Shown in pieces: positions 4,605 through 49,364 of a DNA stretch of 64,000 nt. Position numbers and translations under genes: made by a program. The first letter of the stretch is position 1. Every line of letters begins with the position of its first letter. The notes beneath the pieces are model-generated. The model saw only the letters and a list, made by a program, of their open reading frames with translations, searched no databases and had not been told where the DNA came from. The stretch spans positions 1 through 64,000 of the forward strand of contig NZ_JAPWGM010000007.1 of the NCBI RefSeq assembly GCF_027213715.1, written 5' to 3'. The DNA comes from Pedobacter punctiformis (lineage in GTDB: Bacteria; Bacteroidota; Bacteroidia; Sphingobacteriales; Sphingobacteriaceae).

Positions 4605-6185
4605 CTAAATTATTTTTAATCGTTCCTCTTCCAAATCAATCTGGTACAATTGCGTGCGGATTATTTCCTCATTAATTGACGGATCTTTATTAAGCTCAGC
4701 CAAAAATTGGCGCTGGCTTTCAAGCATCTCGATAAATATAGCTTTGGTTTTTTCACTCATCCAGTCATCATCGGCTGCTTTAGTCTTTTCTTCCCAATGT
4801 TGTAATATTTTCTCTATGATCTTATGATCGGACGACTCGTTTTCATGTTTATTTTTAAGAAACTGATAAATGTGCGCCCTTAGTTTTTGCTTTACTCTAT
4901 GACTGGTTTCCTCTTCAGGTTCCTCGTTAAGCCCTGTAAATAATTGTGTTCGTTTAATTAAATAAGGCAACGTAAGCCCTTGCAGCAATAAGGTAAGCAG
5001 TATCACTACAAAAGTGATAAACAGGATAAGGTTGCGGTGCGGAAAGGCAATACCATGATCAAGCGTTACCGGAATAGCCAGGGCAGCGGCCAGCGATACC
5101 ACTCCACGCATGCCCGTCCAGCCTAGTAAAATCGGCAACAATAGCCTTCTTTTAATAGATGTGACGCGGGGCGCAACGCCGGGTCGAAATATAAGTGTGG
5201 TAATCAATGCCGCATAAGAGCTGATTATTCGTGCCAAAATCAAAACCCCGGTAACCATAACCCCATAGCCTATAGCAGTGCCCAGCGGGATGCCTTTACT
5301 TCTCAAACCCTCGGTAATTTCGGGTAACTCAAGTCCTATAATTAAAAAAACAATTCCGTTCAGTATAAACACGAAACTTTCCCATACACTATAACCTTTA
5401 ATACGGCTGCTGCTGTTTAAAAAGATCAATCGCCTGGATGACATAAATAATCCACCCGCTACAACTGCCAGCACACCCGAACTATGTAATTGCTCCGCAA
5501 TCCAATACATAAAATAAGGTTCAATAAGGGTAAGTGCAATATCCGAAGGCGCATCAGTAGGCAACCGTTTGTGTGCCTGCACAAATATCCAACCCAATAA
5601 TAAGCCCAGTCCAATGCCACCAATAATCATCCACCCAAAAGTTAGTGTTGCTTCCTGCCAAATAAACTGACCAGAGCCTACTGCTACCAGTGCAAACCGG
5701 AAGATAATGAGAGAAGAGGCATCATTTAATAAACTTTCTCCCTCTAAAACGGCTGATGTAGATTTAGGGATTTTTACAAACTTTGTAATGGCCCCGGTAC
5801 TCACCGCATCGGGCGGCGATACAATGCCTCCAAGCAAAAAGCCTAATGCAAGCGAAAACCCCGGAATGAAATAATTGGTAAACAGTGCAACCGATAATGC
5901 AGAAAAAAATACCACCAGGAAAGCAAAGCTGCTGATAATGCGCCACCATTTCCTCATTTCCTTAAATGAAATAGACCATGCAGCTTCAAATAGAAGAGGC
6001 GGCAGGAAAATAAAGAAAATAAGATCCGGGTTAATTCTTACAACCGGTAATCCAGGAATAAAACTTACAAGCAACCCGGCAACAACCAATAATATGGGGT
6101 AGGCAATTTTAAGTTTGGTGGCCAACATTTGCAAAAGCACAATGGCCGCAATCATGGCCAGTAAAAAAGGTAAAATACTATGCAT
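4605..6185 (-). CDS. Na+/H+ antiporter, CPA1 family
   Basis: Cation:proton antiporter of the CPA1/NhaP type, which exchanges Na+ (or K+) for H+ across the inner membrane. The start is the ATG at 6185 (MHSILPFLLAMIAAIV); it opens the first membrane helix. An upstream in-frame start at 6284 would add an unlikely 33-residue lead. About 12 hydrophobic helices run to about residue 410, with the family signature around GESLLNDASSLIIFRFA (the ND pair is ion-binding). A charged cytoplasmic tail of about 100 residues follows, as in many CPA1 proteins. Ion preference cannot be read from sequence. Confidence 0.88.
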   Translation of the reverse strand: MHSILPFLLAMIAAIVLLQMLATKLKIAYPILLVVAGLLVSFIPGLPVVRINPDLIFFIFLPPLLFEAAWSISFKEMRKWWRIISSFAFLVVFFSALSVALFTNYFIPGFSLALGFLLGGIVSPPDAVSTGAITKFVKIPKSTSAVLEGESLLNDASSLIIFRFALVAVGSGQFIWQEATLTFGWMIIGGIGLGLLLGWIFVQAHKRLPTDAPSDIALTLIEPYFMYWIAEQLHSSGVLAVVAGGLFMSSRRLIFLNSSSRIKGYSVWESFVFILNGIVFLIIGLELPEITEGLRSKGIPLGTAIGYGVMVTGVLILARIISSYAALITTLIFRPGVAPRVTSIKRRLLLPILLGWTGMRGVVSLAAALAIPVTLDHGIAFPHRNLILFITFVVILLTLLLQGLTLPYLIKRTQLFTGLNEEPEEETSHRVKQKLRAHIYQFLKNKHENESSDHKIIEKILQHWEEKTKAADDDWMSEKTKAIFIEMLESQRQFLAELNKDPSINEEIIRTQLYQIDLEEERLKII

Positions 6186-46255: not shown

Positions 46256-48118
46256 CTACCGGATAATCAGTACAGGGATATTAACCTTATGCCTTACAGA
46301 ATCAACCGTGGTGCCAAAAATTAAATCTTTAAGGCCCTTGTGACCGTGAGCACCCATAACCAGGAGTTCCAAATTATTTTTATTACTGATATCTGCAATG
46401 GCATTTGCGGTACTTCCAAAACCAATAAATATGCTGGAATCGTAGCCTAAATCGGCAAGATTGCTTTTATACTTTTCGAGGTTTTCTGCGTCACTTTGTG
46501 TTTCATGGTCCATTGCTTTATCTCCGTGATAACGGGCTGCGGCAGTTTCAACTACATGCATCAGGTAATAATGAGCATCTTTTCCACCCTGAATTAAAGC
46601 ATGTCTGATGGTATTCCGGTCATTTTTAGAAAAATCTATTGCAATACCAATCCTTTCGTATTTAATTTTTTCAATATTACCAATCGACAAGGCATTTCCA
46701 TGCGGAACCATTTGTTTCTCAGTGTTTTGTTTATCAAGAATAGGATGCAAGAAAACATAGATTAAAAATAATACCGTTAAAATTACCGCCGGAAAAATTA
46801 TGACATAAATCCACCAGCCACCCGACTCTTTTGTCCACCGGCTAATCTCTTCGATAACCAGCTTTACATTTAATGCAATGATTCCGGCTGCACTTGCCCA
46901 TGCTAAAACTTTAACCCAGATTTTAATGGCGAAATCCTTCATCAGCTTTTTATCCGAAGTAAAATGAATTAACGGGATAATGGCAAAGCCCAATTGTAAA
47001 CTTAAAACAACCTGGCTTAAAACCAGTAAACCACCTAATGCATCATCGCCATAATATAAAATGGTAAAGAATGCAGGAATGATGGCTAATAAACGGGTAA
47101 TTAAACGTCTTAACCAGGGTTGAATCCTCAAGTTTATATGGCCTTCCATCACAATTTGCCCAGCCAGTGTTCCCGTTACGGTCGAACTTTGTCCAGCGGC
47201 AATTAAAGCTATTGCGAATAAGGTTGGTGCAACGTTTCCAAAAATGTTTGATAATAATTTGTGTGCATCCTGTATTTCCGCTACTTTGTGTAATCCATTT
47301 TTATAGAAGGCTGCAGCAGCAAGAATAAGAATTGCAGCATTAACGAAAAAAGCAAGATTTAACGCTACCGTTGTATCAATAAGATTAAACTTTAAAGCCT
47401 CCTTAATACCTTTATTGGTCCTTTCTATTTTTCTGGTTTGAACCAGCGAGGAGTGTAAATAAAGGTTATGCGGCATAACCGTTGCACCAATAATTCCTAT
47501 TGCGATATACAATGCATCTCCGCTTAAAAGAGAGGGCTCGAAACCTTTAACCACTTCTTTTATCGAAGGTTCTACAATAAACATTTCGGCCAAAAAGGAA
47601 ATACCAACAATAAATACCATGGATACAATGAAGCTTTCCATAGCCCTCATTCCTTTGTTTAGTAAGAAAAGCAGCAGAATGGTATCGAAAATGGTGATGG
47701 AAATCCCCCAGATTAAAGGTAATCCAAAAAGCAACTGAAGCCCAATTGCCATACCTATAATTTCTGCTAAATCGCAAGCAATAATGGCTGTTTGTGCCAA
47801 CCCAAATAAAGGGATATTTGCCCAGCCTGGATAGGCATTTTTAGAGGCTTGTGCCAAATCAAGGCCACGGACAATACCCAGGCGTGCACTTAAAGATTGC
47901 AATAACAAGGCAATAAGGTTAGACATTAGCAATACCCAGATTAACTGATATCCAAATTTGCTTCCGCCGGCTAAATCGGTTGCCCAATTGCCCGGATCCA
48001 TGTAACCTACACTAATTAAATAGGCGGGACCGATAAAAGCCAATATTCTGCGCCATCCTTTTCGCTTATCTGTGGCTACGCTTTGATGAACTTCACTCAG
48101 TGATTCAGTTTTTGCCAT
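46256..48118 (-). CDS. Nramp divalent-metal transporter fused to a universal stress protein domain
   Basis: 620 residues. The Nramp core (about 1-440) has 11-12 helices with the metal-site motifs DPGNWATD (helix 1) and MPHNLYLHS (helix 6). It imports Mn2+ or Fe2+ with protons. The last ~150 residues (IGIAIDFSKNDRNTIRHAL onward) form a UspA domain with the ATP-binding pattern G-2x-G-9x-G-T (GAHGHKGLKDLIFGTT). Such Nramp-Usp fusions occur in Bacteroidota, and the Usp part may tune transport by nucleotide binding (inferred). The start overlaps the end of the DtxR-type repressor gene by 14 bp, so both are one operon. Confidence 0.93.
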   Translation of the reverse strand: MAKTESLSEVHQSVATDKRKGWRRILAFIGPAYLISVGYMDPGNWATDLAGGSKFGYQLIWVLLMSNLIALLLQSLSARLGIVRGLDLAQASKNAYPGWANIPLFGLAQTAIIACDLAEIIGMAIGLQLLFGLPLIWGISITIFDTILLLFLLNKGMRAMESFIVSMVFIVGISFLAEMFIVEPSIKEVVKGFEPSLLSGDALYIAIGIIGATVMPHNLYLHSSLVQTRKIERTNKGIKEALKFNLIDTTVALNLAFFVNAAILILAAAAFYKNGLHKVAEIQDAHKLLSNIFGNVAPTLFAIALIAAGQSSTVTGTLAGQIVMEGHINLRIQPWLRRLITRLLAIIPAFFTILYYGDDALGGLLVLSQVVLSLQLGFAIIPLIHFTSDKKLMKDFAIKIWVKVLAWASAAGIIALNVKLVIEEISRWTKESGGWWIYVIIFPAVILTVLFLIYVFLHPILDKQNTEKQMVPHGNALSIGNIEKIKYERIGIAIDFSKNDRNTIRHALIQGGKDAHYYLMHVVETAAARYHGDKAMDHETQSDAENLEKYKSNLADLGYDSSIFIGFGSTANAIADISNKNNLELLVMGAHGHKGLKDLIFGTTVDSVRHKVNIPVLIIR

Positions 48119-48767
48119 TTTCCGTTGTTAGTATATGTTTTGCTACTTCTCTGCTTATATTAATTTGTTTGTTATCCACTAAAATTTCTACTGAACCATC
48201 GAAATCCGTCACATCAGATATTTTAACCTGCTTACCAAGTGTTAGGCCAAGTTTTTCTAAATGTTTTAAAAAGGCAGAACTGTGTTGACTTACTCCGGTA
48301 ATGGTGCCGCTTTCTCCAATTTTTAATTCAATAAGCTTAACAAATTGTGTTTTTGCAAATCTTCCATTTTTATCAGGAATTGGATCGCCGTGAGGATCAG
48401 CTTTAGGGAAACCCAGAAATTCATCCAAACGTTCAATTAGGTTTTCAGATTTAATGTGCTCAAGCTCTTCAGCAACATCATGCACTTCATCCCATTTAAA
48501 ATTTAGTTTATCAACTAAAAATACTTCCCACAAACGGTGTTTGCGCACAATATTTATAGCAGTTTGCTTGCCTTTTTCTGTTAAAGTAACCCCCTGATAT
48601 TTAATGTAATCAATCAAACCTTTCTCTGCCAGTTTCTTAATCATATCTGTTACCGAAGCTGGTTTAGTTTGAATTTGTTCTGCTATGGCATTGGTTTGAA
48701 CCGTATTTGTGCTTTCAGATAAATGATAAATTATTTTAAGGTAATTCTCCTCAGTGAAGCTTTGCAT
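48105..48767 (-). CDS. DtxR/MntR-type metal-dependent repressor
   Basis: 220 residues. N-terminal winged helix-turn-helix (EENYLKIIYHLSES, KPASVTDMIKKLAEKGLIDY), metal-binding/dimerisation domain (HRLWEVFLVDKL, HDVAEELEHI), and a C-terminal FeoA/SH3-like domain (GESGTITGVSQHS). It is the DtxR/MntR/IdeR type that represses metal uptake genes when Mn2+ or Fe2+ is bound. Its neighbour and operon partner is the Nramp transporter, so Mn2+ (MntR) is the likely ligand. A palindrome 20 bp upstream of its start is a candidate operator. Confidence 0.92.
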   Translation of the reverse strand: MQSFTEENYLKIIYHLSESTNTVQTNAIAEQIQTKPASVTDMIKKLAEKGLIDYIKYQGVTLTEKGKQTAINIVRKHRLWEVFLVDKLNFKWDEVHDVAEELEHIKSENLIERLDEFLGFPKADPHGDPIPDKNGRFAKTQFVKLIELKIGESGTITGVSQHSSAFLKHLEKLGLTLGKQVKISDVTDFDGSVEILVDNKQINISREVAKHILTTENGKN

Positions 48768-48786
48768 TTATGTGTGTCTAATTTTA

Positions 48787-48806
48787 TTTTTAGGTAAATC
48801 TAAAAA
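48787..48806. promoter_or_regulatory. Candidate MntR/DtxR operator upstream of the metal operon
   Basis: TTTTTAG-GTAAAT-CTAAAAA is a perfect 7-bp inverted repeat with a 6-nt spacer, reading TTTAGGTAAATCTAAA at its core. It lies 20 bp before the start of the repressor gene. It resembles DtxR-family operator half-sites (TTAGGTTA-type). Confidence 0.55.
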
Positions 48807-48855
48807 AATAAAATTAAAATATATAAGATAAATTATGTTAAAATTTAGAATATAA

Positions 48856-48886
48856 TTTGGTTATGTTTGTATTCTCAATACCTTTG
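48856..48886 (+). promoter_or_regulatory. Promoter for the Lrp-type regulator
   Basis: TTTG (48856-48859) and a perfect TACCTTTG (48879-48886), spacer 19 nt, 7 nt before the ATG at 48894. Confidence 0.7.
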
Positions 48887-48893
48887 AAACTAT

Positions 48894-49364
48894 ATGGCAT
48901 CAGAATTAGATAAAATTGATTTTAAAATCTTAAGAATTCTACAAGAAAACGGAAGAATCACCAACCTGCTTTTATCACAGGAAATCGGTTTATCACCAGC
49001 TCCAACATTAGAACGGGTACGTAAGCTTGAAATGGCCGGGTACATTAAAAGTTATCATGCTTTAGTTGATGAAGAAAAGTTAGGGTTAGGTATAAAAACT
49101 TTTATTCAAATCCAACTGGATTTTCATAAAAATAATACCATTCAAATTTTTCTGGACGAAGTAAACCAAATTAAAGAAATTACAGAATGTCATCACGTAA
49201 CCGGACAAGCTGATTTTTTATTGAAAGTTTACGTAAAGGATATCAAAGCCTACGAGCGCTTAATTATGGATAAGATTAGCAAAATCTCTGTCGTTAAAAC
49301 TTTCCAAACGATGATGATCATGTCAACAACAAAGAAAGAACCTATCGTTCCTTTGGAATATTAA
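48894..49364 (+). CDS. Lrp/AsnC family transcriptional regulator
   Basis: 156 residues. N-terminal HTH (ILRILQENGRITNLLLSQEI, PAPTLERVRKLEMAGYI) and C-terminal RAM/AsnC ligand domain (KTFIQIQLDFHKN ... ECHHVTGQADFLLKVYVKD). The Lrp/AsnC group responds to amino acids and controls nitrogen or amino-acid metabolism. It is divergent from the metal operon and has its own strong promoter, with a very short leader. The target genes are not evident. Confidence 0.93.
   Translation: MASELDKIDFKILRILQENGRITNLLLSQEIGLSPAPTLERVRKLEMAGYIKSYHALVDEEKLGLGIKTFIQIQLDFHKNNTIQIFLDEVNQIKEITECHHVTGQADFLLKVYVKDIKAYERLIMDKISKISVVKTFQTMMIMSTTKKEPIVPLEY

Follow-up and report, generated by a model that had tools for sequence, protein, structure and literature searches.

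The window, i.e., the whole stretch of 64,000 nucleotides that was analysed, belongs to a genome whose genus was judged to be Pedobacter from its closest named relatives. On its minus strand, mntR, encoding a DtxR-family repressor, overlaps mntH, encoding a transporter of the NRAMP type. A gene for an Lrp/AsnC-family regulator (lrp) is divergent from mntR. The lrp-mntR gap is 126 bp long with a GC content of 16%, and both flanking genes start at it. The features discussed below are the following.

46256-48118, minus strand: mntH, NRAMP Mn2+/Fe2+ importer with a C-terminal Usp domain, 620 aa (Pfam PF01566, PF00582).
48105-48767, minus strand: mntR, DtxR-family metal-dependent repressor, 220 aa (Pfam PF01325, PF02742, PF04023); the first base of its start codon is 48767.
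48767-48782, minus strand: O2, weaker second copy of the putative operator, ATTAGACACACATAAA, 22 bp downstream of O1.
48787-48806, no strand assigned: inverted repeat of the initial annotation, with 7-bp arms and a 6-bp spacer, TTTTTAGGTAAATCTAAAAA.
48789-48804, minus strand: putative operator O1, 16-bp core TTTAGATTTACCTAAA in the mntR orientation, its degenerate pattern occurring in 81/81 upstream regions.
48795-48802, minus strand: presumed degenerate -7 box TAGATTTA of a putative promoter, inside O1.
48894-49364, plus strand: lrp, divergent from mntR and probably not the owner of the site.

The repressor combines an N-terminal winged helix (HTH), a metal-binding and dimerisation domain and a FeoA domain, all above the Pfam cut-offs (PF01325, 64.6 bits; PF02742, 114.6 bits; PF04023, 57.1 bits), and thus belongs to the DtxR/MntR family. 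It is called MntR by context and not as an equivalog because it falls below every NCBIfam MntR cut-off: its best score for an MntR equivalog is 175.6 bits for a cut-off of 350, and none of the eight listed families reaches its cut-off. The mntH product scores 570 bits against NF001923 (Mn2+ transporter MntH), for which the cut-off is 430. It is an NRAMP protein fused to a C-terminal universal stress protein domain (46256-48118), a fusion also found at locus L149 of another genome. Solved structures matching the repressor include ScaR and SloR, with whose metal-site residues E100, E103, H104, and H126 align. Mn-type DtxR proteins have a Glu at the position of Cys102 of DtxR, a Glu/His pair after it and an Asp ligand near position 8; E100, E103 and H104 agree with this, but Asn8 replaces the Asp. 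Lys11 is found at the position of Glu11 of Bacillus subtilis MntR, as judged from the ligand names in the available text of PMC4805248, B. subtilis MntR itself being outside the alignment. Searching its own genome with the repressor gives one match at E 0.001.

The perfect TTTTTAG/CTAAAAA arms described in the initial annotation, 20 bp before the repressor start, are confirmed, TTTTTAGGTAAATCTAAAAA being read at 48787-48806 with its lower edge 20 positions away from where the start codon begins. Over the whole genome (4.12 Mb), the exact spaced pattern is found once and the reversed control pattern not at all. When up to three mismatches are allowed, the window contains 41 matches for 29.7 expected, a number attained by 4/100 shuffles. 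The 126-bp gap was also shuffled 2000 times with its dinucleotides preserved: 66% of the shuffled gaps contain one or more perfect 7-bp inverted repeats (spacer of 0-20), and 19% contain one whose arm includes a G or C. The 7-bp arms were consequently dropped as stand-alone evidence, being at chance level in shuffles of such an AT-rich gap. A terminator is unlikely because the flanking genes are divergent and both start at the gap.

The palindrome is judged real because it is conserved among relatives, and not because of the bare repeat. The upstream regions compared are those of the window and of the best 80 of 350 relatives in named genomes, whose proteins are 72-93% identical. The pattern TTTAGATTT[AG][CT]CTAAA occurs in 81/81 of them, starting at -35 to -38 from the start codon. 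In the window, the O1 core ends 21 bp before the mntR start codon. Among the 39 more diverged regions (72-79% protein identity), 14 of the 16 core columns are invariant and the two others are divided 36 vs 3 and 37 vs 2. The flank of O1 is largely variable in these regions, except for a block on the lrp side and an invariant TTAG that begins 23 bases after the O1 start. On these alignments, the conserved core is TTTAGRYnnRYCTAAA rather than the TTTTTAG arms, and its family-wide form is TTTAGRnnnnYCTAAA. Operators of DtxR and IdeR are of the TTAGGTTAG type, and the TTAGG/TTAGR core half-site is common to them and to the Pedobacter site.

A wider survey covered 80 further DtxR-family loci, hand-picked from match lists and not random, scored for TTAGRnnnnYCTAA as the perfect core. 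In this hand-picked set, the perfect core is present at 17/18 mntH-linked loci from other genera of the family. It is found at 18/20 loci of the first family set, in which 18 loci are mntH-linked, and at 1/10 of the second family set, made mostly of distant paralogues. Within Pedobacter, 3/4 further orthologues carry it (three of the four were chosen because the exact 16-mer had missed them), as do 10/16 paralogues, and 9/30 DtxR homologues from elsewhere in the phylum have it. When the letters of the upstreams are shuffled, the count is 4/3220. The mntH-linked loci L172 and L169 have no perfect core, and a strict scan found none at L212 and L223, which are mntH-linked but lie outside the family. 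A palindrome with TTAGR-type half-sites, as expected of a DtxR/MntR operator, is kept upstream of the regulator gene in 81/81 close upstream regions (the window included) and at 17/18 mntH-linked loci of other genera.

The ends of the site also vary. Nine of the 16 Pedobacter paralogue loci have GTTAGRnnnnYCTAAC and one has ATTAG..CTAAT. Of the 38 distinct sites with a perfect core, 32 have a symmetric end pair (T..A 24, G..C 7, A..T 1) and six an asymmetric one. That both ends change together in paralogues fits a palindrome read by a dimer. This symmetry also bears on the idea that the palindrome arose by chance in AT-rich DNA, or forms a weak hairpin in RNA, and that no protein binds it. Shuffles of the gap often hold such a repeat, as this idea has it, but the invariance of 14/16 core columns among 39 diverged sequences, the symmetric change of the ends, and a second location carrying the same 22-bp array (see below) make it scarcely credible.

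A second, weaker copy of the palindrome, O2, is centred 22 bp downstream of O1, its last base being the A of the mntR start codon. All site-bearing sequences counted (101/101) contain the TTAG of O2. With all offsets between -30 and +44 scored, those of -2 to +2 excluded, +22 is the top secondary offset in all three ortholog groups, with means of 13.9, 12.4, and 12.5 (of 16), the next-best offsets reaching 11.3, 10.3, and 9.5. In this scoring, the O2 count is 41 rather than 42 owing to the omission of L012, which has 67 bases upstream, and the 20 sequences of the group called other exclude L169 and L172 (no perfect core) as well as L189 and L190 (paralogues without mntH). In many loci, O2 touches the start codon with its A-rich end, so that the match may partly reflect translation signals; at nine loci of the other group where O2 and the ATG are separate, O2 still reaches scores of 10-14. 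Palindromes thus recur with a period of about 22 bp over the presumed promoter, as in arrays of the SloR type.

The promoter itself is more elusive. According to the available text of PMC9723704, TAnnTTTG is the -7 consensus of Bacteroidota. The corresponding TAGATTTG (TAnnTTTG) lies inside O1 in 36/39 diverged orthologues, and in the other group TAnnTTTG lies inside O2 in 13/20 sequences and inside O1 in 1/20, which resembles a shift of the promoter box, by one operator period, from one copy to the other. Between -20 and +40, a perfect TAnnTTTG is found in 0/42 sequences of the clade of the window, and a TTG located 17-23 bp ahead of the O1 box is lacking from 42/42 near and 37/39 diverged sequences. 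The mntR promoter assignment is weak because of these two absences.

Since the palindrome sits in the lrp-mntR gap and lrp is divergent in most of the mntH-linked loci read, the Lrp/AsnC-family regulator could be its ligand and lrp its target. Several observations run against this. The site is kept before mntR-mntH at loci where no lrp was detected in the fetched stretch (L179, L191, L208; tblastn), at L149 it is kept before mntH without mntR, with lrp still divergent, and it also stands before TonB-receptor genes. It stays 35-38 bp away from mntR in 81/81 regions, and a separate conserved block sits closer to lrp. Ownership by the Lrp-type regulator is hence extremely unlikely. The site is assigned to the repressor and transporter because it is kept without lrp, before mntH alone, and before TonB-receptor genes. 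The proposal of an MntR/DtxR operator serving the repressor-transporter operon is thereby supported, the site appearing to track repressor and transporter and not lrp.

At 48844-48869 of the window, before lrp, stand this conserved block (CCAAATTTTATTCTAAAA, minus strand, in diverged relatives) and a TAnnTTTG box, TATGTTTG, at 48862-48869. Block and box are perhaps the promoter or autoregulation signals of lrp. At L149 (G084:C1:735300-743300), mntR is absent between lrp and mntH and the operator is kept before mntH; another DtxR paralogue of that genome (G084:C3) may act on it.

A second site was found elsewhere in the genome of the window. The degenerate 16-mer has four exact places there, one of them 26 bp before a gene encoding a TonB-dependent receptor of 818 aa. 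A 26-bp composite, made of the 16-mer and a TTAG at a 22-bp offset, is exact at two places in the genome, namely mntR and the TonB receptor, and its reversed control has 0 exact matches. The expectation that the palindrome would stand before other metal genes is hence borne out once in this genome, and on the condition that the TonB-dependent receptor is a metal receptor. Scans tolerating mismatches are uninformative genome-wide, their counts being near the control: the 16-mer at two mismatches gives 263 vs 245 and the 26-mer at one mismatch 12 vs 17, i.e., background. A further exact 16-mer, at C9:416160, lies within a lactate/malate dehydrogenase gene, has no exact 22-bp partner, and was taken as chance. 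Another, TTTAGATAAGCCTAAA, at L112 1501-1516 (G000:C8:2379-2394), lies 29 bp before a PorP/SprF gene, also without an exact 22-bp partner.

An orthologue of the receptor is present in 47/98 genomes at E 1e-150, of which 30 were taken as loci. The 16-mer is found in 29 of the 30 orthologues read, the exception, L274, having a changed core, TTTAGTTTTGTCTAAA. TTTG is the -33 element of Bacteroidota promoters. In 29/29 site-bearing receptor orthologues, a TTTG-N19-TAGATTTG arrangement is formed with the -7 box inside the operator, which would be an almost ideal Bacteroidota promoter. Additional imperfect copies of the operator occur at -22 and +22 (means of 13.0 and 12.3 of 16), and by our reading the -22 copy would cover the TTTG element. 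The overlap of the operator with promoter-like sequence is thus clear and strong at the receptor, and weak at mntR of the window.

The receptor gene is divergent from a cluster composed of MerC, ABC ATPase, FtsX permease, two small proteins, and a Fur-family gene, the region concerned being L131 5110-11635 (G000:C8:498109-504634). This cluster looks like a zinc or iron regulon, and a dual control of the gap is possible, as is a role of the receptor in Zn or Fe uptake given the Fur-family gene beside it. That neighbourhood gives some ground to a further explanation, in which the palindrome is a Fur-family (Zur/Fur) box common to mntR-mntH and the TonB receptor, the latter being a zinc or iron receptor. 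Against it, symmetric variants of the motif precede the genes of DtxR paralogues elsewhere, and these genes are divergent from TonB receptors, among them orthologues of this very receptor in the Pedobacter genomes G032 and G029 (71 and 68% identity to that of the window genome). The neighbourhood evidence favours a DtxR over a Fur-family owner, and a Fur-family box is very unlikely.

This evidence comes from the neighbours of 22 DtxR loci, out of 55 fetched that lack mntH. DtxR paralogues are divergent from TonB receptors at 12 of these 22 loci (plug domain by Pfam in 12/12) and from di-haem oxidoreductases at six (DHOR in 4/4 tested); at the four others, neither a divergent TonB receptor nor a di-haem oxidoreductase was seen. 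Nine paralogues that are 43-52% identical to the repressor of the window (L152, L153, L155, L157, L159, L160, L161, L162, and L171) have GTTAG..CTAAC operators and are divergent from TonB receptors. In MntR of the window, the putative recognition helix is PASVTDM; in eight of these nine, it is PATATDM.

At the scale of the genus, TTTAGATTTRYCTAAA matches at 146 places over 99 Pedobacter genomes (with a match in 90 genomes), for 5 places with the reversed pattern. The composite matches at 106 places and its reversed form at 36, over 60 genomes; because the reversed pattern also matches, some composite matches must be chance. Among 22 composite loci read, TonB receptors stand at 11 (seven confirmed, four listed as orthologues), a DHOR gene at five, and a LysR-type gene at one. 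Seven further composite matches, located at neither mntR nor a receptor, lie outside this reading (in G003, G018, G026, G027, G029, G054, and G055). Six composite matches were judged chance, five lying within genes and one having no adjacent gene. TonB receptors and di-haem oxidoreductases are thus common to the composite search and to the paralogue neighbourhoods (18/22). At seven receptors of a 752-770-aa type, the composite has its third half-site directed away from the receptor and so is not arranged exactly as at mntR.

At L141, L151, L250, L251, and L252, the di-haem oxidoreductase gene (DHOR in 5/5) is preceded by a central palindrome flanked on either side by half-sites, and at L251 a Rieske protein and a 408-aa protein without Pfam match come after it. 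At L257, near 4787-4855, the composite stands 41 bp before a LysR-family gene that reads like oxyR, for which a link between Mn and peroxide control is possible.

Several characterised systems help to place the site. On a 19-bp DtxR site, two dimers bind opposite faces and overlap, whereas the Pedobacter palindromes are separate and 22 bp apart. SloR of Streptococcus mutans, whose structure 5cvi is the third best solved relative of the repressor of the window, is a DtxR-family Mn repressor controlling mntH, as here (PMC12096823, available text). In the same text, its sites at sloABC and mntH are tandem inverted repeats overlapping promoter elements, like O1/O2, and its recognition elements are described as three 6-6-6 motifs, 4 bp apart, overlapping -10 and -35. 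These figures compute to a 22-bp period that matches O1/O2 and the three receptor copies, approximately so, the total span of 72 bp given there not being an exact fit to 6-6-6 units 4 bp apart. Cooperative binding is also reported for SloR in that portion of PMC12096823. The half-sites differ, AATTAA with a 6-bp spacer for SloR as described there and TTTAGR with a 4-bp spacer and a TAnnTTTG-type promoter for Pedobacter. Pedobacter further departs from SloR in having the repressor gene at the head of the mntH operon and a TonB receptor gene as a putative second target.

Closer in phylogeny, PgMntR of Porphyromonas gingivalis is a Bacteroidota DtxR-family Mn regulator with a FeoA domain, as here, and it binds the promoter region of its own operon, which encodes a Mn transporter too (PMC4805248, available text). 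It is the one characterised Bacteroidota MntR found in the literature search and, as presented in that text, it was shown binding a promoter fragment. According to the same text, PgMntR has two FeoA domains and the transporter is FB2 (FeoB2), whereas in Pedobacter it is NRAMP; the ligands Asp19 and Cys108 named there correspond to N8 and E100 of the repressor of the window in our own alignment. No operator motif seems to be defined in the main text of PMC4805248, which has none of the words palindrom-, operator, or consensus. In Stenotrophomonas maltophilia, the available text of PMC13217887 describes an MntR regulon with a box before mntH and a TonB-dependent receptor, as here. The box is of 25 bp and the receptor has a CQNC plug motif and a thioredoxin-fold partner; the likeness is one of description and not of box letters. 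A literature search of a limited collection found no published description of the Pedobacter operator.

Taken together, the palindrome is read, with a probability of about 0.9, as an operator through which the repressor encoded by mntR would shut off mntR-mntH and also the receptor gene, a reading built on comparison of sequences. When manganese, or possibly iron, is sufficient in the cell, metal-loaded MntR dimers would bind O1 and, more weakly, the second copy O2 centred 22 bp downstream. MntR on O1/O2 would cover the promoter region and exclude RNA polymerase, keeping the mntR-mntH operon off, and under metal scarcity it would release the operator so that the importer is made. The same array over the promoter of the TonB-dependent receptor gene would allow metal uptake across the outer and inner membranes to be controlled jointly. 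We infer the binding of MntR, the repression, Mn as the signal, and the carrying of Mn by the receptor. Mn is favoured as the signal by MntH, by Glu100, Glu103, His104, and His126, and by a ZnuA-type ABC operon behind the homologue L207; with Asn8 where an Asp is usual, the signal could be another metal.

A broader proposal, for which the odds look about even, is that Pedobacter and its relatives have a so far unrecognised MntR regulon in which an operator array with a 22-bp period couples the inner-membrane NRAMP importer to a TonB-dependent Mn receptor of the outer membrane and, in some species, to a di-haem oxidoreductase-Rieske operon. In it, the half-site TTTAGA would double as the start of the -7 box (TAGATTTG), which would be shifted by exactly one period between O1 and O2 across genera. 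The site itself appears, from sequence comparison, to be a well-supported addition to the DtxR/MntR operators, with a candidate regulon (the TonB receptor and, in some species, the DHOR operon) that goes beyond what the initial annotation proposed.

As a predicted operator with strong comparative support, it opens the way to regulon prediction across the family. MntR and the paralogues with GTTAG..CTAAC operators form a natural pair for dissecting how specificity is divided in the DtxR family. The TonB-dependent receptors become candidate outer-membrane manganese importers, and the entry of Mn through the outer membrane becomes a testable question.
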